A stretch of DNA of 51,992 bases, taken from Candidatus Saccharimonadota bacterium. Lineage in GTDB: Bacteria > Patescibacteriota > Saccharimonadia > Saccharimonadales > OFTM59. The translations under genes and the position numbers were made by a program. The first letter of the stretch is position 1; each line of letters starts with the position of its first letter. The stretch covers positions 75,978-127,969 of the forward strand of contig JAJDCK010000011.1 of NCBI GenBank assembly GCA_029260855.1, given 5' to 3'. Below are positions 14,339 to 29,076 of the stretch, piece after piece. The notes under the pieces are model-generated. The model made no database searches, was not told the origin of the DNA, and was given only the letters and a program-made list of their open reading frames with translations.

Positions 14339-14526
14339 GCGGGGGCAGGACTCGGTCACGTTCCGCGACCCCGAAACTTCACGATTGAAAACAAGTTTTC
14401 ATCGGAAGGTTTCCTTGCAGATTACCACTGGCAATCTTCACCTCCGACCTCGCGAGGTCGCAGAACCGAATCAGCCTCCGACCAAGAAAAATACCCGTCC
14501 GGAAAGACGGGCACTTTTCTTGGTAG
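14339..14526. repeat. 188-bp direct repeat, copy A
   Basis: 187/188 identical to 15418-15605; starts with the 16 bp gcgggggcaggactcg of the tRNA-fMet 3' end and ends with terminator + ttggtag. Confidence 0.97.
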
Positions 14527-14607
14527 AGTACGTGCAATCGAATTGGAGCCTAATTTCTACTGAATTATTTCGTTGGGACCGACTATTTGGTCAATATCAC
14601 ATTACTT

Positions 14608-14632
14608 GGTCCAATAGCTAGGACTCGAACCA
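14608..14632 (-). other. tRNA 3'-end-like fragment (T-arm 3' half, acceptor, CCA)
   Basis: Minus strand ends ...GGTTCGAGTCCTAGCTATTGGACCA with no matching 5' half. Confidence 0.5.
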
Positions 14633-14691
14633 TTTTCTTAAGTTACACCGAGAATATAAGCTATCTTTGTAATCAAGGTATAATCTAGATT

Positions 14692-15309
14692 ATGAAATTC
14701 CTAAAATCAAAAATTTTTCTTATGGTAGCTGGATTATTTGCTCTGATTATATTTGCTTGGCTTATCAAGTTTTATTTGAACGGTAGAATGATTCAAAAAG
14801 ATATTAGAAGTCAGATGGATATCCTCGTATTACCATCAGAAAAAGAGGCATACTCCGTAAAGCACAATCGCCGATGCTTCCTTGGCTCTTATAAAACACC
14901 AATAATTGATACTTATTGCCAATGGGTAGGTATACGGTTCTATGAGTTCAACGAACAATCTGTAGATAAGGGGGTTGAAGAGCTACAAGCTCTTTTAGCG
15001 AGCGAAGGATATATACAGCACGAATTTGTTAATCGCTTCCCTTCGAGTGCTAGTGAAGGTTTTCGGATGTTTAGTAGTAGCTCAGTGTCCGGAGAGTACA
15101 GAAGCCCATCTCGTCATCCGAAAGTAAATACAGTTGAGCTAACTTGTTTTAAGCCTCGGGAAACAAGACGTGCAAGTCAGTTTTTCTACATAGGGTACTC
15201 CCCAATTCCTGCTGAATTATCCTCTGAACTTGAAACTAAAATCAGTAAAGCAGAAGGTGTCATAATTTGCGGATATATAATTGAGGCTGGCAACTTTATT
15301 TTGCAGTAG
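14692..15309 (+). CDS. Hypothetical protein with N-terminal TM (205 aa), sole ORF of the tRNA-fMet-adjacent segment
   Basis: Complete ORF, N-terminal hydrophobic anchor. Confidence 0.75.
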   Translation: MKFLKSKIFLMVAGLFALIIFAWLIKFYLNGRMIQKDIRSQMDILVLPSEKEAYSVKHNRRCFLGSYKTPIIDTYCQWVGIRFYEFNEQSVDKGVEELQALLASEGYIQHEFVNRFPSSASEGFRMFSSSSVSGEYRSPSRHPKVNTVELTCFKPRETRRASQFFYIGYSPIPAELSSELETKISKAEGVIICGYIIEAGNFILQ

Positions 15310-15417
15310 TTCAGACAGCTAGGAAGGCTCGAACCAAAATAACAGAAGTGAAATAAAAAACAGCTCCGAATTTTTAAAATTTTGAAACCGTTTCGTATCT
15401 GTCAGATTGACTTTATA

Positions 15418-15605
15418 GCGGGGGCAGGACTCGGTCACGTTCCGCGACCCCGAAACTTCACGATTGAAAACAAGTTTTCATCGGAAGGTTTCCTTGCAGA
15501 TTGCCACTGGCAATCTTCACCTCCGACCTCGCGAGGTCGCAGAACCGAATCAGCCTCCGACCAAGAAAAATACCCGTCCGGAAAGACGGGCACTTTTCTT
15601 GGTAG
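15418..15605. repeat. 188-bp direct repeat, copy B
   Basis: Offset 1079 bp from copy A; abuts the tRNA-fMet 3' end. Confidence 0.97.
15568..15602 (-). terminator. Rho-independent terminator downstream of tRNA-fMet
   Basis: Minus strand: CCCGTCtttccgGACGGG followed by TATTTTTCTT. Confidence 0.75.
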
Positions 15606-15674
15606 CGGGGGCAGGACTCGAACCTGCGACCTCGTGGTTATGAGCCACGCGAGCTGCCACTGCTCTACCCCGCG
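15600..15674 (-). tRNA. tRNA-fMet (CAT), initiator
   Basis: CGCGGGGTAGAGCAGTGGCAGCTCGCGTGGCTCATAACCACGAGGTCGCAGGTTCGAGTCCTGCCCCCGCTACCA; C1:U72 mismatch, encoded CCA. Confidence 0.92.
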
Positions 15675-16130
15675 TCGGTGGTAATGGAGACAAACCTACG
15701 GTTTTTCTCATCGCTCCGGCAAAATGGAATACATTTTGTCGGGCTGCTCTTTTCCCTTAGGAAAATTAGCTAAGAGAAATGAGAGTGCACTCAAATCTAT
15801 AACCTGAATATGTTAGCAAACAGGGGTGCTATTGTCAATCGCACGCCGAAAAAGCATGTTTGTTACTGAGGGCAGCAAGCTCGATTCAAGTTGGCCCAGA
15901 GCACAGCCTTGTCAAGCTAATAGATTTTGATTACGCACAACAGGTAGTAGTCCCCTGAGGATGCAAGTGGGGTGCATCAGCCCGGGCTACCATACTGTCT
16001 TCGTCTGCGCCCAGATCATCTTGCGCACTCTGAGCAATGAACGCGCTACTTGGGGTTTTTTGCATATTGCACTGAAGAAGTCAAAACCTTAGCATGGGTG
16101 ATCCGACAATCGCTATAATCTATAACCCTG

Positions 16131-16158
16131 TTGACTTTTACGCAATTTTATGTATAAT
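16131..16158 (+). promoter_or_regulatory. Strong sigma70-like promoter
   Basis: TTGACT - 16 nt - TATAAT. Confidence 0.7.
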
Positions 16159-16217
16159 AAATCTTGTTGATGCATTAACACAAAAATCATAAAACAAACA
16201 AGTGCGAAAGGATCCCT

Positions 16218-16301
16218 ATGCCACTCAAACTGGCCTACGTATTTGCTCCAACAGACAACGCGAGCATACTCGAAGTTGATGAAATAATCAGTCAACTATA
16301 A
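16218..16301 (+). CDS. Putative 27-aa small protein MPLKLAYVFAPTDNASILEVDEIISQL
   Basis: GAAAGGA RBS, consensus promoter upstream, terminator right after the stop. Confidence 0.5.
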   Translation: MPLKLAYVFAPTDNASILEVDEIISQL

Positions 16302-16306
16302 ACACT

Positions 16307-16332
16307 AAAACCCGGGCACTCCCGGGTTTTTC
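16307..16332 (+). terminator. Rho-independent terminator
   Basis: AAAACCCGGGcactCCCGGGTTTTT. Confidence 0.85.
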
Positions 16333-16399
16333 TTTGGTCGCGCTTGGTTTTTGCATAAAAAAGAATGTACCGGTAATATCTGTCCTTGCATAATGCTTG

Positions 16400-16476
16400 T
16401 GGTAGCAGGGGCGAGAATTGAACTCGCGACCTCAGGCTTATGAGTCCTGCGCTCTAACCATCTGAGCTACCCTGCC
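16400..16476 (-). tRNA. tRNA-Met (CAT), elongator-like
   Basis: GGCAGGGTAGCTCAGATGGTTAGAGCGCAGGACTCATAAGCCTGAGGTCGCGAGTTCAATTCTCGCCCCTGCTACCA. Confidence 0.92.
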
Positions 16477-16703
16477 CTGTATTTTGCCCGAACAACAGGG
16501 GAGAATATAGCATATTTTATCTCTTATAGCTAGCTGCCATCGTGCAAAAAAGAACAGCTCCTGAGTTTTTCAAGAGCTGTTCTTTAAGTATTACGAGTAA
16601 ATTAAGATCTAATTGAAGCCACCGACATATCTATCAGATCTGCTAAAACAACCCGTTCGGCTTCTTAGGTTGGTGGCACTATTTAATACGTTTAATAACA
16701 TGA

Positions 16704-16811
16704 TTACCCCCTATAAATCTTAGCTCTTAAATCCTGCCAAGCGTCCTGAAAATCTTTTGGCATTGATTTGAACTGATCATGTGCAATTTTATTCCAGTCT
16801 CGTCTAGCCAT
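16704..16811 (-). CDS. Putative 35-aa small protein MARRDWNKIAHDQFKSMPKDFQDAWQDLRAKIYRG
   Basis: CAGGAG RBS upstream, amphipathic charged composition, otherwise empty region. Confidence 0.5.
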   Translation of the reverse strand: MARRDWNKIAHDQFKSMPKDFQDAWQDLRAKIYRG

Positions 16812-16970
16812 TCCTTGGTCTCCTGTTTAGCTCACAACATTATCGTCCTAGACTGTAAATTCGTCTGTAAAAAATCTCGCCTCAATCATCAGCACGTTAA
16901 TGGGAGAATTCTTATAGTCAGGGTTTAGGGAACAGCATAAACTAAATCAATGTTAAGGAGGATAACAACT

Positions 16971-17051
16971 GTGAGCCAGTTAGTACAAGATAATAGTCGT
17001 CACAATAACAGTCGCAAGCGTGAGTCCTGGCAACAATTTATTATTTACTAG
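16971..17051 (+). CDS. Putative 26-aa small protein (GTG start) MSQLVQDNSRHNNSRKRESWQQFIIY
   Basis: AAGGAGGA RBS, terminator hairpin after the stop. Confidence 0.45.
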   Translation: MSQLVQDNSRHNNSRKRESWQQFIIY

Positions 17052-17064
17052 ATTTGTTGGGTTG

Positions 17065-17098
17065 GGCCTGTGATCGTTTTGTATATCACAGGCCTTTT
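17065..17098 (+). terminator. Rho-independent terminator
   Basis: GGCCTGTGATcgttttgtatATCACAGGCCttttaa. Confidence 0.75.
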
Positions 17099-17176
17099 AA
17101 ATTGGCGATGCCCCGCCTACACTCCACCTCAAAGACAAATTTTGTCACCAAGAAGGCAACCGACCCTACTATAGGG

Positions 17177-18691
17177 TTAATTTTTTATATCGGTAGAACC
17201 GCTACAGATAAATTGATAATCATACTCAAAGTGGCGACAGACCTGCACGTGCTGCGACGAATCGCTAAATATGTCGTTCATTCTATACGTCAAATCTTTG
17301 TAGCAAGCCTCTTTGCTGGCAACAGGGGTCAGGGAGCACAATTCCGTTGCTTCACCTTTCAGATTGCTGCCCCAGAAGTCTACGATAACATTTAACCCAC
17401 CGCTGATACACTGGTCATAATAGCTGTCTACCATCGGCACATCCCGACAACCACGTACAATTGCAGTAGCGTCACGCAGGTATATGCTCGCAAGATCACG
17501 CCCCCAGCTCCTAAAACATACCGGTATTTGTTCTATTGGCGCCTTAAGACACTGTTCGATTATTTTTGTACCGTTATCGTTATATAAGGTACGCATCCAG
17601 CTTGTTTGCATTTGGTAGCATTCGTACTGTGTAAATGTATCCTGCGAAATTCTGTTGCATGGATAATGTGGGTCATCACTGATCCATTCAGTTTTGTGGC
17701 CTGGGATGGCTCCCAGCCCTTGTGCCACCATTATGTTTTCCATAAACGCACCGCCATAACATCCACTACGCCCATATGAATTTTCTAGCTGGTCGCACAG
17801 CACTAACCCAGCAGGCAGGTCATAGCTTTCATAGGCCAGTACACCATGGCCAACACCGTGGTAGCATTGGAAATTTCCAAAATCAGTATCAAAAGTGCTG
17901 CATAGTTCAGAAATATCAGAGGCTAAATTATCAACGCCGTTTAACTTTATAAACCCTTCCATGGCGCCATGGTAAAGGCCGGAGTGGCAGTTAGGGCTAC
18001 CGTCTTTGAAGACCTCGGCATTATAAAGCTCAAAGCCTAGTCGTCCGACTGTGTGGGCGGGCTGATGACAGTCATATATAGCACCGTCCCCGGAATCTAT
18101 AAGCAAATCATCCATGATAGCCTTGGAGCCAAAAACCGCTAGCTTATAGCGTAGTTCGGTTTCGCCTTTTGGATTATCCCGGTCAGTTAGCTCAATAACG
18201 TTTATTTCTTTCATAATCCTTTTAGCTTCACCGGTAAATACCCTGAAATATAACCTTGCAATACTGATCTTTATGCGGGTAAAGAAACCGAATTCATACG
18301 CTTTTTCTACTTGCTCCACTGAATGATCGTCTTTATTAACCGTAATGTCGCCGACAAATTCCGGTTTTATGTGGTCGTGGAATTTCCACTGTCCGCTTTT
18401 TGTAAACCTAAAGCTCCAACTCTGCCCAGGCTCTACAGGACCTCTAGGGTCAAAGTCAGAATAAATCTCATGTGTCGGGTGGATGTTTGACGCAGGCCAG
18501 CGAGGGCCAGTATCGTCGTTTTTAAAAGTGATACTGTCCCCTTGAGTGATTTCTATATCACTCGGTTCAAAGCCGCCAGGCACCATCTTAATGATGTACT
18601 GCCCTTCCTCGTGCGCTGCGACCGGGAAAAACTGAACCAACAGGAACATCAAGAAAATGGGTGATAAAAACAAGATGGTTTTAATCTTCAT
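17177..18691 (-). CDS. Secreted protein: degenerate cupredoxin-like N-terminal domain plus Cys/His-rich C-terminal domain
   Basis: Signal peptide; GFEPSDIEITQGDSITFKNDDTGPRWPASN..SGQWKFHDHI; repeated CHSGLYHG, CYHGVGHG, CYGGAFMEN. Confidence 0.8.
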   Translation of the reverse strand: MKIKTILFLSPIFLMFLLVQFFPVAAHEEGQYIIKMVPGGFEPSDIEITQGDSITFKNDDTGPRWPASNIHPTHEIYSDFDPRGPVEPGQSWSFRFTKSGQWKFHDHIKPEFVGDITVNKDDHSVEQVEKAYEFGFFTRIKISIARLYFRVFTGEAKRIMKEINVIELTDRDNPKGETELRYKLAVFGSKAIMDDLLIDSGDGAIYDCHQPAHTVGRLGFELYNAEVFKDGSPNCHSGLYHGAMEGFIKLNGVDNLASDISELCSTFDTDFGNFQCYHGVGHGVLAYESYDLPAGLVLCDQLENSYGRSGCYGGAFMENIMVAQGLGAIPGHKTEWISDDPHYPCNRISQDTFTQYECYQMQTSWMRTLYNDNGTKIIEQCLKAPIEQIPVCFRSWGRDLASIYLRDATAIVRGCRDVPMVDSYYDQCISGGLNVIVDFWGSNLKGEATELCSLTPVASKEACYKDLTYRMNDIFSDSSQHVQVCRHFEYDYQFICSGSTDIKN

Positions 18692-18715
18692 TTTGAATCA
18701 TATTATAACATTCAG

Positions 18716-19138
18716 CTAAAGCTTGGCCTTTACTGTTTCAGCTGTAAATGGCAGCGCTACCTCTTCTACCACACCAGCTTTAAGCATAGCAGCGTTAAAA
18801 TATGATAGTTTATGCTCGAGCAAATGAGCCAGAACTACCTTCTTGTTTAGGGCCACCGCGACACCAATTTCTGTCTGCACACCAGCCGATGGCTTGTCAC
18901 TTAAAAGCGCAACCAGTGCGTCGCTTTCTTTTATATGTTTTATATCTAAATTAAACGCTGCAGCCGGGTTGGCATTGTTTATTCTGTACTGATCCTTTCG
19001 AAGCGCACAAAAAACCGTATGTCCTAATGACTCAATGCTGACCAATATATCTTCCAGCCAAGCCTTGTGCTCTGCAAAGACTTCCCCTGTATCGTAGTTA
19101 ACTTGTGTAGAGTATGACGCAGCGACAAATATCTTCAT
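18716..19138 (-). CDS. Nucleoside 2-deoxyribosyltransferase-like protein
   Basis: MKIFVAAS..., IKESDALVALLSDKPSAGVQTEIGVAVALNKKVV. Confidence 0.75.
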   Translation of the reverse strand: MKIFVAASYSTQVNYDTGEVFAEHKAWLEDILVSIESLGHTVFCALRKDQYRINNANPAAAFNLDIKHIKESDALVALLSDKPSAGVQTEIGVAVALNKKVVLAHLLEHKLSYFNAAMLKAGVVEEVALPFTAETVKAKL

Positions 19139-19176
19139 TATTTAAGCTTAACAGAACGGTTTGTTATGATTATGTA

Positions 19177-19752
19177 ATGAAGCAGCTCATTCTTGCATCC
19201 GGATCAGCTGGCCGAAAGTTACTGCTTGATAAGCTTCAAATTCCTTACGCAATTCACGTTAGTAATTACGAGGAGGACCTGACCCTTGATTTGCCGCCAA
19301 AAGAATTAGCAATTGAATTATCCCGAGGCAAAGCGCGCGATGTAGCACAGAGGCATAAAAATGCAGTCGTACTTGGCGCCGATAGCTTCGCTGTATGTGA
19401 TGGCCAGCTACTTGGTAAGCCGCATACCGTCAAGCGCGCCAAGGAGATGCTCCGCCTGTTAAGCAACCGCAGCCACGCTTTTATTACCGGTTATACGATT
19501 ATAGATACTGATAGTGGACGAGAGTTTTCGGAAGCAGTTGAAACCATAGTGTGCTTCCGCGAGATAAGCGACGATGAAATTGACCGATATCTGAAGAAAG
19601 AAGATGTCCTAAAAAATGCTGGCGCATATCGTTTGCAAGATGTCGGTGCGATTTTTGCAGTCAGGGTAGAAGGAGAGGTTAATAACATTATCGGCCTACC
19701 GCTCGCTCAAATCGCCCAACATCTCAAAACTTTTGGTATATCGCTACTTTAA
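19177..19752 (+). CDS. maf: Maf-like nucleotide pyrophosphatase (ORF opens at 19114; start at MKQLILASGS preferred)
   Basis: ILASGSAGRKLLL, LGADSFAVCDGQLLGKP, YRLQDVGAIFAVRVEGEVNNIIGLPL. Confidence 0.92.
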   Translation: MKQLILASGSAGRKLLLDKLQIPYAIHVSNYEEDLTLDLPPKELAIELSRGKARDVAQRHKNAVVLGADSFAVCDGQLLGKPHTVKRAKEMLRLLSNRSHAFITGYTIIDTDSGREFSEAVETIVCFREISDDEIDRYLKKEDVLKNAGAYRLQDVGAIFAVRVEGEVNNIIGLPLAQIAQHLKTFGISLL

Positions 19753-20184
19753 ATGGCTTAGCTCAGTGAGATTGCCGTGTAATACGACTGGCCGGAGGGC
19801 TTTAATCTCTTCCGCAAAAGCTGAATCTTCCGGAATCTCATTGAGTATAAAGATTTTCTTATTCAGATAAAATGCTACGCCCATTTCCATCAGCACGGCG
19901 CCGCCGATATAATTTTGCTGGCCGTTTTTTTCGTAATTCACAACTAAGATAGCATCACCGTCGGTCACCTTATTAAAATGGCCGCGGGTAAGCTTAGTCT
20001 TCTTGTTATAATCACCGCTTTTAAACCAAGGCTTATAGTGGCTAACTTCATAGTCCCTGCTCTGCTTCATGATTTCAGCAGTCGCCGGCAAAACAACTTT
20101 AAAATGCCTTGTTTTTTCAAGCTCAGCCTGAACCTCTACCGCCTGCTTATAAAAATTGACACTCGAACAAATAGTTATAACCAT
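19744..20184 (-). CDS. Nucleoside 2-deoxyribosyltransferase-like / hypothetical
   Basis: DAILVVNYEKNGQQNYIGGAVLMEMGVAFYLNKKIFILNEIPE pattern. Confidence 0.65.
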   Translation of the reverse strand: MVITICSSVNFYKQAVEVQAELEKTRHFKVVLPATAEIMKQSRDYEVSHYKPWFKSGDYNKKTKLTRGHFNKVTDGDAILVVNYEKNGQQNYIGGAVLMEMGVAFYLNKKIFILNEIPEDSAFAEEIKALRPVVLHGNLTELSHLK

Positions 20185-20205
20185 TAACCCAAGTATAGTA
20201 CAGCG

Positions 20206-20655
20206 CTAAGAGCGACGGAACAGAAATTGCATCCAGGCTTCAAAGTTTTGTTGGTACCTAGGCTTCTCGGGCTTAGTCTTTTCGCTCGTTTTCTGGGATT
20301 CTGGCAAGTCTACACTATTAGCCAAAGCTACGCTCTCCGGTACCAGCAATAGCTTTTCGCCTGGCGCAGCTAGCCCAAATTGCCGACGGGCAGTTAGCTC
20401 CAGATATTGGTCCATGTCATAGTACTGGTTACGAAGACGCAACGTATCATTTTCTAGGTTTTGCAGCTCGGTTTCTTGTCTCAGGCGCGATATCTGCTTT
20501 TGTAGTTTATAGTTGTCTTGAATAACCCCTACCCCGCTCCACGTAACAAGCAAGGCAACAACAACAAATACGTGCACGCCCAGAACGCGGACATCGTATA
20601 GTTCCCTTACGTAGGCAATTACTCTTGCAAAAATTTGCTGACCACGCTTTCTCAT
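20206..20655 (-). CDS. FtsB/DivIC-like septum formation protein
   Basis: One TM followed by coiled coil (KQISRLRQETELQNLENDTLRLRNQYYDMDQYLELTARRQFGLAAPGEKLLLVP). Confidence 0.8.
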   Translation of the reverse strand: MRKRGQQIFARVIAYVRELYDVRVLGVHVFVVVALLVTWSGVGVIQDNYKLQKQISRLRQETELQNLENDTLRLRNQYYDMDQYLELTARRQFGLAAPGEKLLLVPESVALANSVDLPESQKTSEKTKPEKPRYQQNFEAWMQFLFRRS

Positions 20656-20669
20656 CCGGTTATCTTCTT

Positions 20670-21035
20670 TTATTTCTGATTTTTATCTGACACTTCGGTA
20701 GGGGCCTCGACGTCGCTCGGCAATTGGTGAGACGGCTTGACTGACATCATACTAAAGGCCAAGGCGAAACTAGCAACAAATCCAACCGACAAAACAACAG
20801 TGCTGACACCCGGGCTATGCTCCATAAAAACAATCGCAATAAGTATCAGCAACGGGACTAGGCCGATGATGCGGTTAAGTGGCTTAACGCCTAGCTTCTC
20901 AAGCAAGGCATATATACCGAACAAAACAAAAGCGATAATAAGTAACGCAGCCCAAATCGGCTGGTGCGTAATCGCGGCCAAAAGCCCGTCGCCCACAACA
21001 GTCTTTTCTTCCGCATGTGCCAAAATATTTAACAT
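20670..21035 (-). CDS. Integral membrane hypothetical protein
   Basis: 121 aa, 3-4 hydrophobic helices. Confidence 0.65.
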   Translation of the reverse strand: MLNILAHAEEKTVVGDGLLAAITHQPIWAALLIIAFVLFGIYALLEKLGVKPLNRIIGLVPLLILIAIVFMEHSPGVSTVVLSVGFVASFALAFSMMSVKPSHQLPSDVEAPTEVSDKNQK

Positions 21036-21101
21036 ACGTATATTGTAGCAGCCCTAGATAGCTGAACATATATCCAACTCTTTTATGGTTCCGGAGAATA
21101 C

Positions 21102-21257
21102 CTAGCAGAAAGGGCAGTCGCCTGCGTCCTTTTTTGCCTCCATCTTTGCCAAGATGGCTTTTGCTTCGTCGCTCTGAGTATTGCTTGTCGCTTGCGTGTC
21201 CTGCTTATTGTCGTCAGGTGTTTTAGCTTTTGTGTCTTTTTTTCCTAAACCTAGCAT
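21102..21257 (-). CDS. Putative 51-aa small protein ending in CPFC
   Basis: MLGLGKKDTKAKTPDDNKQDTQATSNTQSDEAKAILAKMEAKKDAGDCPFC*; AAAGGA RBS. Confidence 0.6.
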   Translation of the reverse strand: MLGLGKKDTKAKTPDDNKQDTQATSNTQSDEAKAILAKMEAKKDAGDCPFC

Positions 21258-21322
21258 TTGGTATTCCTTTTTTATTTTACTATAACGTATTGCATTATAA
21301 ACCGCTTTTGTCTATTTGTCAA

Positions 21323-24049
21323 CTAAGCCTTGTTGTTACCCAGGGCTTCGGGTATTGCTTCTAACGAGTGCTCTTTATAGATAATCTTGTCAAGGATTGG
21401 GTTGAGTAATTTCATGATTACAAACAACGCGATGCTTCCGGCTATCATAATTGACCAGTCATGGGCATTGAGCGGGCCTACATCAAAGTACTTCGCAAGG
21501 CCTGGAGCATAAAGCACCGCCAGTTGAAGAGCTAGTGAAGAGACAATAGCAACAGACAACCACGGGTTCGCAAACCAACGAATCTTATAGTCTGTCCTAA
21601 TATCTACCAACCGAACGATTTCATATACAACCATTGCCGTAAAAGCAGCTGAGACGGCGGCTATTCTGCTCTCATGAGTATGATTGTACCAATACTGTCC
21701 GATGAGAAATATGCTCATGATGGAGCCGAATATAAATATCTCCGCCCAGACGCGCGAAGAAACAATTGCTTCCTGGAACCTCTTTGGCTTAGACGACAAA
21801 ATATTCGCCTGGGCCGGGTCAGAGCCTAGGGCCACCGCTGGTAAGCCGTCCGTAACTATATTGATAAACAGCAGTTGTGCAGCCGTCAGAATAAGGTCAT
21901 TGAAGAAAATAATACCTAGCACTACGGCAATAACCTCGGCTATATTGCAGCTGATTAGGAAATTTACGAACTTACGAACGTTATCAAAGATGCCCCTTCC
22001 TTCTTCAATTGCGTTAATGATGGTCAAAAACTGGTCATCAAGAAGAATAAGATCGGCTGCTTCTTTAGACACGTCAGTACCCGTAATGCCCATAGCGATG
22101 CCTATATCAGCAGCTTTGATGGCTGGCGCATCGTTCACTCCATCACCGGTCATAGCTACTTGATGGCCATGCTTCTTCAGCGCCTGGACTATGCGTATCT
22201 TGTGCTCAGGGTCTACACGGGCATAGACACCGATTGTCTCCACGCGTTTCTCAAACTCTTCTTGACTGAGCGCCGCCAGCTCTGTGCCCGAAATCGCGTC
22301 GCCGGTAATACCAATCTCTTTGGCAACGGCTTTAGCTGTCTCTATGTAGTCGCCAGTTATCATGATCACGCGCATCCCGGCTTCTGACTGGACGCGGTGG
22401 ATGACTTCTATGACTTCCTCGCGCGGCGGGTCCATCATGGCCTGTAACCCTATGAATGTTAGGTTTTTTTCTGCATCCGGCTCGTTCTTTGGCTGCAGTT
22501 TTGTCTGCTTACTGGCAAATGCAAGCACCCGCAGTGCTTGGGCGGCAAAGCGTTTATTCATCTCTAAAATATCTTTTCTGATTTCATTGGTTAAGGTCTT
22601 TTTCTGACCAGCTTTATCGTAATAGTCACCACAGCGGTCCAACACCACTTCTAGCGCGCCTTTAGCAGCAACGATGTATTCTCCGTCCGGAGTTTTGTGG
22701 ACAGTGCTCATGCGTTTGCGCTCTGAAGAAAACGGGAATTCCTGAAGTCTAGGATATCTCGCAATAAGCGTTGCCGCGTCTATCTTGGCCTTGCCAGCGG
22801 AAACGATTAAAGAGCCTTCTGTCGGGTCGCCAATCACGGTGCCTTCTCGTATGGTAGAGTTATTGCACAAAACACCAATCTCTAATAAATGCTGTAACCC
22901 GGGCGCTTGGCTTTTAAACGAGAGCTTGCCAGTCATATCATAGCCACTACCGCTAACTGTCCCTTCCTGAGAGTTCACGTAAAGAGCTCTGACCGTCATC
23001 TCACCCTTAGTGAGCGTACCGGTCTTGTCAGAGCAAATAGTATCAGTGCTGCCAAGAGCCTCTACGGCTGAAAGCTTACGCACGAGCGCATTCTTGCCTG
23101 CCATGCGTCTCGCCCCCAAGGCCAGACTGATACGGACCACGAATGCTAAGCCCTCAGGGATTGCCGCTACGGCAAGCGCTACGGCTGCTGTAAACGCAAA
23201 TATAAGATGATGGACAAGGCCTACGTCACCGTCCTGACGGACAAAGAAAAAGACAATAATAAAGACAATTACACATATGACTGCGATAAAATAACCGAGC
23301 TTTTTGCCCAGGTCATCAAGCTTTTTTTGCATTGGCGTATCTTCGTTTTCAACACCACTTACAAGATCGGCTATCTTGCCGATTTCAGTCTGTTGGCCAG
23401 TACCTACTACAAGGCCTAGCGCACTTCCAGCCGTGAGGAAAGTCCCAGCAAATACCATACATTTCTGGTCACCCAATGGTGCTTCTAGGTCAATTTGATC
23501 GGTGTTTTTATTTACCGGCAAAGACTCGCCCGTCAGGCTGGCTTCGTTACAAGCAAGATCGCTAACCTCTAAAAGACGAATGTCGGCCGGTACTTTCTGA
23601 CCCGCTTCTAGCAAAACTATGTCGCCCGGCACCAGTTCTGCGGCATCGATCTCTTTAACTTCACCGTTGCGGCGTACGCGAGCTTTAAAACCAACTAATT
23701 TACTGAGCGCTTCAACTGTTTTCTCGGCCTTGTATTCATTAAAAAACCCGACGAGAGCAATCGCAACAACAATAACAATTATTAACAGCGACTCTTTGAC
23801 GCTGCCTTCTTCTTCTACAAATGCCAGCCCAAAAGATATGGCCGCAGCTATCATTAACACGATCACGAGAACGTCATTAAATTGATTTAAGAATAACTTA
23901 AACGGGTTTAGTTTCTTGCCGTGGCGCAATTCATTGCGCCCATACTGTTTAACGCGTGCGCCTGCTTCTTGCTCGGACAAACCTTGATCTTTTGCTGTAG
24001 AAAACTGCCTAAGCAGCTCGTTCGGAGAGAGTTGATACCACCGCTTCAT
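21323..24049 (-). CDS. Cation-transporting P-type ATPase (P2/Ca2+ type)
   Basis: DKTGTLT, TGES, TGDGVNDAPAIKAADIG, cation ATPase N- and C-terminal regions. Confidence 0.95.
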   Translation of the reverse strand: MKRWYQLSPNELLRQFSTAKDQGLSEQEAGARVKQYGRNELRHGKKLNPFKLFLNQFNDVLVIVLMIAAAISFGLAFVEEEGSVKESLLIIVIVVAIALVGFFNEYKAEKTVEALSKLVGFKARVRRNGEVKEIDAAELVPGDIVLLEAGQKVPADIRLLEVSDLACNEASLTGESLPVNKNTDQIDLEAPLGDQKCMVFAGTFLTAGSALGLVVGTGQQTEIGKIADLVSGVENEDTPMQKKLDDLGKKLGYFIAVICVIVFIIVFFFVRQDGDVGLVHHLIFAFTAAVALAVAAIPEGLAFVVRISLALGARRMAGKNALVRKLSAVEALGSTDTICSDKTGTLTKGEMTVRALYVNSQEGTVSGSGYDMTGKLSFKSQAPGLQHLLEIGVLCNNSTIREGTVIGDPTEGSLIVSAGKAKIDAATLIARYPRLQEFPFSSERKRMSTVHKTPDGEYIVAAKGALEVVLDRCGDYYDKAGQKKTLTNEIRKDILEMNKRFAAQALRVLAFASKQTKLQPKNEPDAEKNLTFIGLQAMMDPPREEVIEVIHRVQSEAGMRVIMITGDYIETAKAVAKEIGITGDAISGTELAALSQEEFEKRVETIGVYARVDPEHKIRIVQALKKHGHQVAMTGDGVNDAPAIKAADIGIAMGITGTDVSKEAADLILLDDQFLTIINAIEEGRGIFDNVRKFVNFLISCNIAEVIAVVLGIIFFNDLILTAAQLLFINIVTDGLPAVALGSDPAQANILSSKPKRFQEAIVSSRVWAEIFIFGSIMSIFLIGQYWYNHTHESRIAAVSAAFTAMVVYEIVRLVDIRTDYKIRWFANPWLSVAIVSSLALQLAVLYAPGLAKYFDVGPLNAHDWSIMIAGSIALFVIMKLLNPILDKIIYKEHSLEAIPEALGNNKA

Positions 24050-24128
24050 ATGTTCGTCCGTGTGTCTTAATTTCTGTTGAGATAACCTCTTTACATGTTA
24101 TAGTGTTTATAATACATAAGCAAAATGA

Positions 24129-25064
24129 ATGCGAAGAGTGGGCCTGATGTTATTTGCACAAACAGACCTTGAACAACAGATTATAGAATTGGCAACCAGA
24201 ACTGTTGTCATGGCTTCGATAGCCCTAATCGTATTAGTAGTGGTTGCCGCGGCCACGAAAGACAAGCTACCCATACTGAAGCTACCGCTGTTTATACTAA
24301 TAGCGTTCTCGATGATAGGTACAACTGTAGTATTATTCGGCAGCACTATTTATCTTAATATGAAGTCTGAATCTGGCGGACCAGTACACTGGCATGCAGA
24401 GATAGAGTATTGGTCATGTGGTGCAGAGTTGAACCTAAGAGATCCGGTTGGCTTTTTATCCAATAAGATCGGGACAGCAACTTACCATGAGCACAATGAT
24501 AAACATATCCACCTAGAAGGTGTGGTTGTTCGGAAAAGTCACGATGCGTCACTTGGTAAATTCATGGATGTTACCGGCGGCTATATCAACCAGGGCGTTA
24601 TCGCAATTCCACTAAATAGCGATGAAGCGACCTGGTTTACCGCCGGCAGCCAGCTTGATGGCGACAACCAACGTACAGAAAATTTTGGCCTGGCTACGAA
24701 TGAGGGGCAATGGATAACTCACGCCGACGAGGGGGCTGTTCTAACCCTACGCGACGGGGAATATTGTAGCGGTAGCCACGAAGTTCCTGCCGAACTTCAG
24801 GTATTTGTGTACAGTTACGATACAGCCTCCGAAACGTACGCTCAGCGCAAGCTTGATAAACCTGCTCAGTACGTATTAAGGGAAGAGTCCTCGCTTGGTC
24901 CGCCTGCGGATTGCGTGATCGTTGAGTATGATACGCCCCGGGCGCGAACAGATAAGCTTTGTCAGCAGTACGGCGTAAAAGACGCCGATCGCTGCACTGA
25001 GTTTGGCGTCAAAGAATACGACGGAGAATTATGCAATATCCGCGAAGTAAGGAGTAGCCAATAA
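24129..25064 (+). CDS. Membrane-anchored His-rich protein, hypothetical
   Basis: Two TM then HWHAEIEYWSCGAELNL, YHEHNDKHIHLEGVV; 1-nt overlap with the next gene. Confidence 0.75.
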   Translation: MRRVGLMLFAQTDLEQQIIELATRTVVMASIALIVLVVVAAATKDKLPILKLPLFILIAFSMIGTTVVLFGSTIYLNMKSESGGPVHWHAEIEYWSCGAELNLRDPVGFLSNKIGTATYHEHNDKHIHLEGVVVRKSHDASLGKFMDVTGGYINQGVIAIPLNSDEATWFTAGSQLDGDNQRTENFGLATNEGQWITHADEGAVLTLRDGEYCSGSHEVPAELQVFVYSYDTASETYAQRKLDKPAQYVLREESSLGPPADCVIVEYDTPRARTDKLCQQYGVKDADRCTEFGVKEYDGELCNIREVRSSQ

Positions 25065-25768
25065 TGCTTGACCTACCTACCCTGGGGCTAGTGATAACTT
25101 CTGCTGCGATTGATTCAATAAATCCTTGTGCTATCGGCGTGCTGATTCTCATGGTATCAGTCATTATGGGTCAAGGTGGCGGTACAAAAAAACTAATCAA
25201 AAACGGGTTGGCATATATTGGTGCTATATTTTTTACCTACCTTATCGCTGGCCTTGGCTTAATTGTTGCTTTTGCTTCAATACCAATCCTGGTAGCCGAA
25301 TACCTTTCGCTCTTTGTTGGTGCTCTTGTAGTAGTGGCGGGTCTGATCGAGATTAAAGACTACTTCTGGTACGGCAAAGGCTTTTCACTACAGATCCCCA
25401 AGTACTTTGCCAATAAGATTCATGAGTATTCCACAACCAAGACAAGTACCTGGGGCGTAATGCTTCTGGGGGCCTTCGTGGCTGCTGTTGAATTGCCTTG
25501 TACGGGCGCGCCTTATTTGGCAATTATTACGATTCTTAGGATTGACTTTAATCTAATAGCCTTCGGTCTAATGGTTTTGTACAACCTTATATTCGTAGCG
25601 CCCCTACTTATTATTCTGTTCATGGTAGCGGGTGGCGCAAAAATTAGTGATGTCTCTAAATGGAAAGAGGACAGCAAAGGCACTATGCGGTTATTCATGG
25701 GGCTATTGCTAGCAGCTCTTGGTTGGATATTAATATTAATCGCCAATGGCACTATAAACTTTGGATAA
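25064..25768 (+). CDS. CcdA/DsbD-type thiol-disulfide transmembrane protein
   Basis: Six TM, SINPCAIGVLILM and ELPCTGAPYLAI Cys-Pro motifs. Confidence 0.8.
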   Translation: MLDLPTLGLVITSAAIDSINPCAIGVLILMVSVIMGQGGGTKKLIKNGLAYIGAIFFTYLIAGLGLIVAFASIPILVAEYLSLFVGALVVVAGLIEIKDYFWYGKGFSLQIPKYFANKIHEYSTTKTSTWGVMLLGAFVAAVELPCTGAPYLAIITILRIDFNLIAFGLMVLYNLIFVAPLLIILFMVAGGAKISDVSKWKEDSKGTMRLFMGLLLAALGWILILIANGTINFG

Positions 25769-26045
25769 ACTGATGAAGCATATTGTTAAAAGAGCCGGTC
25801 ACAGCGAAAACTATGATGAGCGAAAACTTTATGCCAGTGTTTACGCCGCCTGCTTAAGCGTTCGTGAGCACCCGGGTTCGGCTGAGCTGATAGCACAAGA
25901 GGTAGTGCATCAATTTGCTCAATGGCTAGAGAATAAACATGAGGTTTCATCAAACGACATACGCCGGGTAGCCGGAGATTATTTAAGACAGCTAAACCCA
26001 GACGCAGGACATATGTACTTGCTACACCGCTCTCATCATGTATAA
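25761..26045 (+). CDS. Stand-alone ATP-cone domain protein
   Basis: HIVKRAGHSENYDERKLYASVYAACLSV...IAQEVVHQFAQWL...VSSNDIRRVAGDYLRQLNPDAGHMYLLHR. Confidence 0.8.
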   Translation: MDKLMKHIVKRAGHSENYDERKLYASVYAACLSVREHPGSAELIAQEVVHQFAQWLENKHEVSSNDIRRVAGDYLRQLNPDAGHMYLLHRSHHV

Positions 26046-27429
26046 ATCTAAACACAAAAAACCAACCTATTATGATTATGACCTGGTAGTTATAGGTACA
26101 GGCGCTGGTGGCGGCGTGGCGGCCCATGTTGCAGCAAAAGCTGGCAAAAAAGTTGCTGTTGTTGAGATGGAAAAGCTTGGGGGCGAGTGCCCTAATTTTG
26201 GTTGTGTGCCTACTAAAGCGCTATTAATGGCCGCAGAAACTTATAAGACGGCGCTGAATGGCGAGCGCTTTGGTCTGCGTACAGAGCAAATCGGGTATGA
26301 CTTCAAGGCCGTAAAGGCCTGGAAGGACCAAGCTGTATTAAATACTGGCACCGATGAGGGGGCGGAGTTTTACGCCCGAGAGGGCATAAAAGTTATTACC
26401 GGTCATGCGCATTTTATTAATCCGTGGAGCATATCTGTGAACGGACGTCGTTATGTAGCCCATAAGTTTCTGATAGCTACCGGCACAAAATCTGTAGTGC
26501 CGCCCATACCTGGGCTTGTAGAGGCTGGCTATATGACTTACCGCGACGCCATTGAGCTAAGCACCCCACCTAAGTCATTGTTCGTTATTGGTGGCGGAGC
26601 TATTGGCTGCGAGTTCACCGAATTATTTAGCTCATTTGGCACAAAAGTGCACGTTGCCGATATGGCGCCCAGGCTTATTGGTCTAGAAGATCCTGAAGTC
26701 GGCGAGTTAATTGGCGCTTTATACAAGCAGCGAGGCATAGGTGTACATACCAACGCAAAGATAACACGGGTCAGCACAGACGCAGGCAAGAAGATCGTAC
26801 ATTTTGAAGTAGGCAGCAGAACACAACAAGTGTCTGTTGATGAAATATTATTATCATCCGGCAAAGCGCCCAATACAGACCTAGGGCTAGAAAACGCCGG
26901 TGTTATATATGACCGCAGCGGGATCAAGGTAAACGACCATATGCAGACTTCATCAAAACACATTTATGCGGCCGGAGACATCGTTGGGCCGTACCGTTTC
27001 ACCCACACTGCGTCATACCAAAGTCGGGTCGCTGTGCATAATATGTTCCATCGCAAGAATCAAGTAGTCGCTAGATACCATGCGGTACCACGCTGTGTAT
27101 TTACTGACCCGGAGATTGCTTGTGTCGGCCATACCGAACAACAATTGAAAGAAAAGAATTTTGCTTATCGTACAGCAGCGGTTCCTATTACGGTTATTGG
27201 TCGAGCCAACACCAGCGGTGTTGATAGTGGGTTTGTAAAAGTTATTGCTAGCGAAAAGGGGACATTATTAGGCGCAAGCATAGTCAGCCCGCGAGCTGGC
27301 GAGATGATTCACGAGCTTACACTTGCTGTTCAGCATGGTATGAAAGCCCGCCAGGTCGCCGAAACAATACACGCCTTCCCTACTTGGTCAGAAGCCGTCC
27401 GGGCCGCCTGCAATAAAATCAGATCTTAA
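26038..27429 (+). CDS. Pyridine nucleotide-disulfide oxidoreductase (mercuric reductase/dihydrolipoamide dehydrogenase-like)
   Basis: VIGTGAGGGVAAHVAAKAGKKVAVVE, GGECPNFGCVPTKALL, C-terminal HAFPTWSEAVRAA. Confidence 0.93.
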   Translation: MYKSKHKKPTYYDYDLVVIGTGAGGGVAAHVAAKAGKKVAVVEMEKLGGECPNFGCVPTKALLMAAETYKTALNGERFGLRTEQIGYDFKAVKAWKDQAVLNTGTDEGAEFYAREGIKVITGHAHFINPWSISVNGRRYVAHKFLIATGTKSVVPPIPGLVEAGYMTYRDAIELSTPPKSLFVIGGGAIGCEFTELFSSFGTKVHVADMAPRLIGLEDPEVGELIGALYKQRGIGVHTNAKITRVSTDAGKKIVHFEVGSRTQQVSVDEILLSSGKAPNTDLGLENAGVIYDRSGIKVNDHMQTSSKHIYAAGDIVGPYRFTHTASYQSRVAVHNMFHRKNQVVARYHAVPRCVFTDPEIACVGHTEQQLKEKNFAYRTAAVPITVIGRANTSGVDSGFVKVIASEKGTLLGASIVSPRAGEMIHELTLAVQHGMKARQVAETIHAFPTWSEAVRAACNKIRS

Positions 27430-27827
27430 TGAACAGACGCTTAAGAAATAGACCCCAAAATCACAGACGCTTATTTGACCTTCTTTTTGTGCCAAAAACT
27501 TCTGGCGACAAGCTACTCTTCAATATTGGCCGCTTTACCGGAGCAGCCTTCCTATTCGCGCCTGCAATTTTGGGTTGGCTGGCAGAGGAGAGCTTGATTT
27601 ACAAATCTGTTTTAGCTTTAACCGTAATATGCATATTACTATTCTTTACAGCTTTTACCCTGTTAACTATTAGAAAAATTGGACGTGAGGGCGGTAAATT
27701 TAGTTGGCCAGCTCAAACTCTTTATTTCTCTAGAAAATTATTTTTATTCGTATTCTTTCCAGCGATTGTGTTTACTTTTTTAATACTTTTATGGGCATAT
27801 ATAACGAACCAACCAATTTTTCAGTAA
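27429..27827 (+). CDS. Integral membrane hypothetical protein
   Basis: 132 aa, hydrophobic helices, overlaps the previous stop (ATGA-type). Confidence 0.65.
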   Translation: MNRRLRNRPQNHRRLFDLLFVPKTSGDKLLFNIGRFTGAAFLFAPAILGWLAEESLIYKSVLALTVICILLFFTAFTLLTIRKIGREGGKFSWPAQTLYFSRKLFLFVFFPAIVFTFLILLWAYITNQPIFQ

Positions 27828-27835
27828 ATAACAAA

Positions 27836-27872
27836 AGCCACCTTTGTAGGTGGCCTTCATTTTCTGGTGGGG
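27836..27872. repeat. Direct repeat of the tRNA-Ile2 terminator plus acceptor end (distal copy)
   Basis: gccacctttgtaggtggccttcattttctggtgggg; shares taggtggccttcattttctggtgggg with the copy at the tRNA 3' end. Confidence 0.9.
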
Positions 27873-28072
27873 ACGGTGTCAGTTTATTTGAAACACGCCC
27901 ACTAGAAGACCTCCTAGCAGATATAGCAGTTGGCTGGAATGATACGCGGCGCATCATAGGCAATCTACGGTCCAGTAAAACACCTGAATTAAGCTATGTC
28001 CTATAAGAGGTCATGACCATTAGGGCGAGAGTGTTTGAAACAAAGGGTAAAAACTATTTTACAATTATACGC

Positions 28073-28774
28073 TCATATGACACCCGGACGTAGCGCTAAC
28101 AACGCTGCACGTAACGACATATCACCTAAAGCGCCCGGCAATTCTGCCGCGGTTGGAGTCAGCAAGGCATCAGCGTATTGCCAGCGTATATGGCTAGGGT
28201 TTGCAGTTGCTGCGTTGGGCGACTCGGTGCCCAAAAATGCAGCTAATCTAGAGTTGCCCTGTTGCGTTTCTGGATTATCAGCATAGATTTCCAAATTACT
28301 GCCACCCGAAAGCCTTAGCCAAAACAGGCCCTCACCACCCTCTTGTACGTCTAGTTCTGTAATTTCAGCCAAGTCAGATACGCGTAAAGGCAGATTCATA
28401 ACAAATCTCCTGTCTGTGCTGTTTTTCGCACGATCGCCATCAATTTCGCAAACACCCGCCCCTTGGTTAAGTCTTGCGCCAAAAACGACGCTACACCGTC
28501 TAACTGCTCGACTGCCGAGCATGGCGGCTCTATTGATTCTCGCAATTGTCTCTTCTAGTGGAGGTGCTTCACCGGTACGTATAACTAATAAATCTACTCG
28601 CTTTTTAAGAGTATGTTGTGTAGTGGAGTATTTATCGAACTCCATGGCACCGTGCGGGGTGTTAAAAGTACCAGATGTCAGTCTCGTTGACTCATCTAAG
28701 CGTTGCCCGTCTTCGTTAAAACAGGAGACTCGAACAGGCTGTGTCTCTACGTCTGTAATAAATAATGGACTCAT
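28073..28774 (-). CDS. Hypothetical protein (233 aa), sole ORF of the tRNA-Ile2-adjacent segment
   Basis: Complete ORF, no recognised domain. Confidence 0.65.
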   Translation of the reverse strand: MSPLFITDVETQPVRVSCFNEDGQRLDESTRLTSGTFNTPHGAMEFDKYSTTQHTLKKRVDLLVIRTGEAPPLEETIARINRAAMLGSRAVRRCSVVFGARLNQGAGVCEIDGDRAKNSTDRRFVMNLPLRVSDLAEITELDVQEGGEGLFWLRLSGGSNLEIYADNPETQQGNSRLAAFLGTESPNAATANPSHIRWQYADALLTPTAAELPGALGDMSLRAALLALRPGVI

Positions 28775-28828
28775 CGGCCGTATTATCGTACTGCTATACT
28801 ATTTATGCAAGCACTAGCAAATAAGTTT

Positions 28829-28847
28829 TGGTGGGGGTGGATGGAAT
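28829..28847. repeat. 19-bp copy of the tRNA-Ile2 3' end
   Basis: tggtgggggtggatggaat, identical to 29001-29019. Confidence 0.95.
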
Positions 28848-28965
28848 AAGCCTTCGGCTTGCGCTCTGCAGCCATGCTCGGAATCTATTCCTGCGCGTGG
28901 CTTTGATCTTCTAACCATTTTTGCTATTGCAAAAATCTGGTTCGCTTCCCACGCAACATGCAGAA

Positions 28966-29000
28966 AATAAAAACCACCTTGATAGGTGGCCTTCATTTTC
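28966..29000 (-). terminator. Terminator of the tRNA-Ile2-like gene
   Basis: Minus strand CCACCTatcaAGGTGGtttttatttt. Confidence 0.75.
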
Positions 29001-29076
29001 TGGTGGGGGTGGATGGAATCGAACCATCTACCAAGCGGTTATGAGCCGCCTGCTCTAACCGATGAGCTACACCCCC
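29001..29076 (-). tRNA. tRNA with CAT anticodon, probable tRNA-Ile2 (TilS substrate)
   Basis: GGGGGTGTAGCTCATCGGTTAGAGCAGGCGGCTCATAACCGCTTGGTAGATGGTTCGATTCCATCCACCCCCACCA; D-arm/anticodon arm resembles bacterial tRNA-Ile(CAU). Confidence 0.88.

Follow-up and report, generated by a model that had tools for sequence, protein, structure and literature searches.

Known Systems and the R Element

The closest described systems to the DNA considered here are REP/REPIN hairpins, integron cassettes, tRNA-integrating islands, tRNA introns and the palindromic elements of Rickettsia. That DNA is a 51,992-nt stretch (the window) of a Candidatus Saccharimonadota bacterium (assembly GCA_029260855.1, contig JAJDCK010000011.1, positions 75,978 to 127,969 of the forward strand), in which two tRNA-Met genes are each followed by displaced copies of their own 3' ends, with a small hairpin element, here called R, in between. 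R looks like an undescribed mobile element aimed at tRNA loops. REP/REPIN hairpins and their RAYT (TnpA_REP, a Y1 HUH protein) resemble R in being small, non-coding, hairpin-based, multi-copy and non-autonomous, and RAYT-like genes co-occur with R. R differs in its tRNA-loop sites and remade tRNA flanks; moreover, RAYT genes of the source genome are flanked by unrelated palindromes, and half of the R-bearing genomes lack RAYT at the threshold used. Integron attC cassettes share with R a folded site, tandem arrays and a repeated core as boundary, whereas R has no IntI, mostly no cassette open reading frame (ORF), flanks derived from the target, and sites in several tRNA loops.

tRNA fragments derived from integrated elements are well known (PMC9897764). 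Islands that integrate at tRNAs by tyrosine integrases or large serine recombinases likewise leave an intact tRNA and a displaced tRNA end, and real islands are found at some of the tRNAs that carry R. Unlike such islands, the R unit, ~180 bp long, is free of any recombinase, moves from one tRNA to another and contains a stretch of antisense tRNA. tRNA introns (archaeal bulge-helix-bulge, group I) are likewise inserted in D-, anticodon and T-loops. The interrupted copy at R units, however, has lost its 5' or 3' part and adjoins an intact tRNA, and R has no Rfam intron match. All tRNA copies that carry R are truncated, which rules them out as working tRNAs with an intron. The Rickettsia palindromic elements are palindromic repeats of ~100 bp within genes of a reduced genome; R differs in being tRNA-specific, in always leaving an intact tRNA and in its sense-antisense-sense flanks. 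No description of R or of its arrangement at tRNAs was found in the open-access literature searched, and the claim of novelty is limited to that literature.

Anatomy of the R Unit

An earlier reading of the window (the sequence-only reading) described two tRNA loci with displaced 3' ends and hairpin-rich spacers and took them for a family of mobile cassettes, each one ORF plus a folded site, targeted to tRNA 3' ends. The loci are there, as are a folded site and a wider family aimed at tRNAs, but the repeated entity is a unit of about 170-190 bp beside an intact tRNA and not a 1.1-kb ORF cassette. The unit consists of a hairpin terminator, an antisense T-arm copy of the adjoining tRNA and a broken sense copy with R inside. 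R itself is about 88 nt long, folds into three hairpins and takes the place of 2-3 nt of a tRNA loop. Its site is always within an incomplete copy of the tRNA next to it, in the T-loop, D-arm or anticodon loop and preceded by a G. In type I, one of three sequence types, the order is TGAR, hairpin 1, GCAAGGA, hairpin 2, TCGGG, hairpin 3, GTGACC.

Units occur on both sides of tRNA genes. Downstream units read tRNA-CCA, hairpin (the arms often including ACCA/TGGT), antisense T-arm, 5' strand of the sense T-arm, R, and 3' strand of the sense T-arm to CCA, and use the T-loop. In upstream units, which use the D-, anticodon or T-loop, the 5' part of the tRNA comes first, then R, a brief continuation of the sense copy, a piece in antisense, the promoter region and finally the intact tRNA. 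Of 40 downstream units, 36 have an antisense T-arm cognate to the adjoining tRNA (mean score 12.3, vs 7.35 for non-cognate tRNAs and 5.6 for shuffled sequence); the antisense signal is weaker in upstream units (16/27). The copied tRNA 3' end reaches CCA in 21 of the 40 downstream units, and in none does it extend 12 nt past CCA.

Variants of the layout are also seen. One R lies inside another, in its third-hairpin region, at two sites of the source genome, referred to as G000 (C17:16645-16477 and C1:39210-39048), and at two sites of genome G036 (near 218795 and 703400). Four loci (L071, L051, L053, L059) carry tandem arrays in which R units of differing types stand behind one tRNA. At a tRNA-His locus (L076) a perfect direct duplication of ~68 bp, comprising the tRNA 3' part and trailer, flanks the insert, which is probably the youngest insertion seen. 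As a general target duplication it was rejected, since 0/40 other downstream units show one. An antisense T-arm copy without R adjoins tRNA-Gly beside a RAYT-like gene in genome G088 (L264, 2660-2745).

Distribution and Conserved Structure

The source genome comprises 790 kb in 18 contigs, of which about 750 kb were covered. Among its 34 tRNAs, a displaced 3' end lies at 171-187 bp for Val, Ser-CGA, Asn and both Met, and at larger distances for Lys-CTT, Glu-CTC and Gln-CTG. The spacers, compared against the genome, fall into three types of R. Copies of type I stand by the tRNAs Met (window 14339-15605), Lys-TTT, Leu-CAG, Gln-CTG (two), Pro-GGG and Gly-GCC (a nested pair each), and at the outer end of the Glu island. 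Val, Phe, Asn and the second Met (window 28848-28962) have type II, and Ser and the outer end of the Lys island have type III. Displaced 3' ends at other tRNAs, which the sequence-only reading had proposed looking for, are thus present at many tRNAs of this genome, and across the order the covariance model R1 matches 92 of 295 genomes, spread over 66 of 143 genera, with top counts of at least 14 per genome. A same-strand tRNA lies within 400 bp of 84 of 105 copies (52 after the tRNA, 32 before), where an estimated 2-3% would be expected by chance. The remaining copies have tRNA fragments on their flanks, lie at contig ends or sit where a tRNA island stops, away from the tRNA; in G036, a near-complete genome, every match with E < 1e-4 is at a tRNA or a tRNA-island end. 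A second tRNA-Cys 3'-end copy, 96 bp downstream and without an R match, is also present in G036 (413700-414000). Several contigs end within or just after R (L156, L165, L192, L074). Assemblies thus seem to break at R, which makes the copy numbers minimum values.

Scanning 84,980 species genomes by pattern returned 91 stretches, of which 80 were retrieved. The loci confirmed by the model belong to records named Saccharibacteria/Saccharimonadia, unnamed or uncultured bacterium and Patescibacteria, and to one metagenome-assembled genome labelled Parcubacteria; stretches in named Proteobacteria, Bacteroidota and Firmicutes records gave no model match. An exact-pattern scan of viral contigs with one pattern found no R.

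A covariance model of the spacers, also proposed by the sequence-only reading, reveals a covarying structure. With that structure, and with the layout recurring at many other tRNAs, the wider family proposed by that reading passes its own refuting test. Over 97 sequences the model pairs hold in 97.8% of cells, a figure that leans towards the model because the alignment was fitted to it. The slide and shuffle controls are decisive: 481 cells are double-changed, against 110±8 in shuffled alignments and at most 46 with partners slid. G-U pairs amount to 2.4% in R and 6.6% in tRNA stems; the ratio of one-side to two-side changes is equal, so that these figures do not separate the DNA from the RNA level. 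A search of R types I, II and III with the Rfam 15 covariance models gave no family, with tRNA the only significant match and the rest far under gathering scores.

Movement Between tRNAs

Of 79 R copies, 25 have their nearest relative in the genome they come from (shuffled mean 3.6, maximum 10); of 73, just 3 have it at a tRNA of the same kind (shuffled mean 3.0). In the genus-mate G001 near-identical type III copies stand at tRNA-Lys and tRNA-Arg, with upstream flanks that differ and each match their own tRNA; Arg-TCT has no unit in the source genome. A composite R of G036 is found both before tRNA-Gln-TTG, in the D-loop, and after tRNA-Gln-CTG, in the T-loop, and type II R is found at tRNA-Val in the source genome and at tRNA-Leu in G001, in each case with unrelated flanks. 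Since the same R occurs at different tRNAs with flanks matched to each tRNA, R is the moving part and the flanks are made anew.

The Two Loci of the Window, ORF Segments and Islands

At locus 1, displaced copies of the tRNA-Met 3' end recur 187 and 1266 bp downstream of the gene, and at locus 2 one recurs 172 bp downstream (Table 1). The sequence-only reading gave repeat-to-repeat distances of 1079 and ~1136 bp, and the measured values are 1079 and 1136 bp. The 188-bp repeat of locus 1, at 99% identity, is far beyond chance. The same modular order was claimed for both loci; the layout is common to them, but the distal repeat is a whole 188-bp unit at locus 1 and only 43 bp at locus 2, and the loci are therefore not strictly the same series of modules. 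Their hairpin-rich spacers are, as claimed, unrelated to one another (R types I and II), yet each has relatives at other tRNAs.

Table 1. Positions of the features of the two tRNA-Met loci in the window.
Feature	Positions	Strand	Basis
Intact tRNA-Met(CAT), host gene of locus 1	15600..15674	-	ARAGORN
Unit A hairpin/terminator, directly after the tRNA; arms include tRNA ACCA (ACCA..TGGT)	15560..15603	-	Inverted repeat, sequence
Unit A, antisense tRNA T-arm copy, then sense T-arm 5' strand copy (LT')	15520..15558	-	Inverted repeats against the tRNA; rule over 40 downstream units
R element type I (three hairpins), unit A	15433..15519	-	Covariance model R1, 99.5 bits
Displaced tRNA 3' end (RT) closing unit A	15416..15432	-	Repeat analysis
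ORF-bearing segment U of locus 1, outside the R unit	14527..15415	.	Missing from G001, which has tRNA-unit-flank
205-aa ORF of U, strand opposite to the tRNA	14692..15309	+	No Pfam/NCBIfam match
Unit B, the 188-bp unit repeated in full, 99% identity with unit A	14339..14526	-	R at 14354-14440
Intact tRNA-Met(CAT), host gene of locus 2	29001..29076	-	ARAGORN
Unit C hairpin/terminator, directly after the tRNA	28963..29000	-	Sequence
Unit C, antisense T-arm remnant and R type II (motif CACGCGCAGGA..TCCGAGCATG)	28848..28962	-	Common to tRNA-Val, -Asn and -Phe units of the source genome and the tRNA-Leu unit of G001
Displaced tRNA 3' end (RT) closing unit C	28829..28847	-	Direct repeat
233-aa ORF beyond unit C, separate cargo	28073..28774	-	No family match (Pfam, NCBIfam)
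Shorter second copy of tRNA end CCCCACCA and terminator, locus 2, 43 bp at 91%	27830..27872	-	Repeat analysis

The significance given to the ~1.1-kb unit does not hold. Locus 1 of G001 has one unit, which runs directly into the flank located beyond unit B in the window, and the 1079-bp segment of ORF plus unit is therefore extra in the source genome. Because that locus is free of the ORF segment and most other loci are without cargo, the shared spacing is a coincidence. The integron-like logic of one ORF plus a folded site fails, most R units being ORF-free, ORF segments appearing separately inserted and flanks being remade for each tRNA. Relative to their tRNAs the two ORFs are in opposite orientation (14692-15309 on the + strand, 28073-28774 on the - strand), and a search of 61 genomes for homologues of the 205-aa ORF gave a single weak match.

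In the source genome two islands, 7.0 kb long at Lys-CTT and 5.9 kb long at Glu-CTC, each have a large serine recombinase abutting the tRNA and a displaced tRNA tail and terminator between island and R unit. The recombinase genes (C3:16294-17883 and C13:26747-28360; L006, L039) have C-terminal codons that run into the tRNA 3' end; a third PF07508 match lies near tRNA-Gly (C1:37867). The R unit of tRNA-Lys is present in G001 without the island, which in the source genome sits between tRNA and unit. The islands thus insert beside existing R units, and we infer that the ORF segment of locus 1 is likewise a separate insertion next to an R unit. The history of the locus-2 cargo is less clear, since the corresponding unit of G001 is shrunken. 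Two small segments ended by tRNA-Gln 3'-end copies, with no preceding R, lie 907 and 1289 bp downstream of tRNA-Gln-CTG (C12, 6106-6179); the first has one ORF resembling a RibD/dihydrofolate-reductase-type protein.

Candidate Enzymes

RAYT-type Y1 HUH genes occur in 20 of 32 R-rich and 3 of 32 R-free genomes. With the family profile RAYT is matched in 44 of 92 genomes with R and 16 of 203 without (odds ratio 10.7, p = 3e-14, ignoring phylogeny), and RAYT is a candidate, no more, for the enzyme that moves R. Five RAYT-like Y1 transposase genes are present in the source genome (C3:57009, C15:5002, C3:5360, C6:14384, C7:2109), several with their own end palindrome (e.g., GTGAAAGGATAAACCTTTCAC). 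These genes were rejected as the source of R because the palindromes at their flanks are others, unrelated to R. Co-occurrence of serine recombinases with R is weak (odds ratio 1.9, p=0.019). The sequence-only reading suggested a Xer/IntI-like recombinase; the source genome has no IntI, and its sole PF00589 protein is Xer-like and scores 136.7 against a TIGR02249 (integron integrase) cut-off of 265 bits. Reverse transcriptase shows no association (5/32 R-rich vs 4/32 R-free genomes). An IS110/bridge RNA system was rejected, there being no PF01548 (DEDD transposase) match in the source genome. No autonomous R with an internal gene was seen with the hp1 motif in two genomes.

Explanations for the R Units

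With a probability of roughly 0.68, both loci are insertions of a family of small non-autonomous hairpin elements, R, aimed at Saccharibacteria tRNA loops. R lands after a G, where it substitutes for 2-3 nt of a T-loop, D-arm or anticodon loop, and the outcome is an intact tRNA, an antisense stretch and a broken sense copy holding R, with a working tRNA always left. Placement after the tRNA is closed by the tRNA's own 3' end, and placement before it opened by the tRNA 5' part. The family, its fold, its link to tRNAs, the cognate antisense copy and the transfer of R between tRNAs with new flanks are established; the mechanism is inferred. Active transposition may consist in the joining of a folded single strand of R at the tRNA loop, template switching or gap filling could make the sense-antisense-sense flank, and selection may keep the outcomes with a working tRNA. 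The enzyme would act in trans, and ORF segments would be separate insertions exploiting the same tRNA 3' ends. Several observations weigh against insertion by such an element. RAYT, the best candidate enzyme, is not matched at the threshold used in 48 of the 92 R-bearing genomes; 24 of the 92 are without a PF07508 (serine recombinase) match. No clean pair of loci before and after insertion, free of erosion, was found, and locus 2 of G001 is an internally deleted unit. Clean junctions lie on opposite sides of R in upstream and downstream types, and no single textbook mechanism covers both. In addition, stems that are hypervariable yet paired would also fit a functional RNA.

That alternative, in which R is a non-coding RNA or terminator domain tied to tRNA expression or processing and locally duplicated with the tRNA, draws on the very strong covariation, the constant presence of R at tRNAs and the terminator-like hairpin after CCA. 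It is nevertheless unlikely: R is found in under one third of genomes, its position and side vary, its closest relatives stand at other tRNAs of the same genome and not at the same tRNA elsewhere, copies are nested within one another, and Rfam holds no match. A retroelement, with R joining tRNA transcripts at exposed loops and being copied back by reverse transcriptase, would account for sites that coincide exactly with exposed RNA loops, for copied tRNA 3' ends that reach CCA in 21/40 units and never run 12 nt past it, and for the perfect target duplication at the one His locus. The even spread of reverse transcriptase over R-rich and R-free genomes, and a clean junction in upstream units opposite to where target-primed reverse transcription would put it, make it quite improbable.

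R units could also be attachment-site remnants of large-serine-recombinase islands integrating in tRNA 3' ends, as the recombinases abutting tRNA-Lys and tRNA-Glu, with R at the distal ends, and the weak co-occurrence would have it. Against this stand the island-free Lys unit of G001, the place of the island between tRNA and unit in the source genome, the lack of any gene in the R units, the 24 of 92 R-bearing genomes with no PF07508 match, and R-rich genomes without the recombinase (G008, G016, G058, G072); differing tRNA loops would, moreover, require differing attB sites, and the probability of this origin is low. Integron-like cassettes, with tRNA 3' ends as attI and a Xer/IntI-type recombinase acting on an ORF and an attC-like site, are very unlikely. 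A folded site does adjoin the tRNA 3' end, its interrupted-strand hairpin resembles attC, and units form tandem arrays, locus 1 being a unit-ORF-unit series. Most units, however, are ORF-free, G001 has the unit without the ORF segment, the only tyrosine recombinase falls far short of the integron-integrase cut-off, flanks and RT fit each new tRNA and are not carried by a cassette, and R also enters D-arms, anticodon loops and sites before tRNAs. The sequence-only reading made no convincing match to the attC core motifs (RYYYAAC / GTTRRRY).

Implications for Saccharibacteria

Insertion of R at tRNA loops offers an explanation for the many pieces of tRNA found near tRNA genes of Saccharibacteria. 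It will mislead the annotation of tRNAs and the assembly of genomes in this group; several contigs end in R. More tentatively, and with the odds rather against it, R may be the first of a class of elements that read tRNA genes by loop structure and not by fixed sequence, in which an enzyme acting in trans, HUH (RAYT-type) or Xer, inserts a folded strand, leaves a sense-antisense-sense copy of each target and always spares a working tRNA. If true, a mobile element would target the shape of tRNA genes, not their sequence, in genomes reduced to the point where little mobile DNA would be expected, and R would offer a natural system of loop-directed insertion that spares the target gene.

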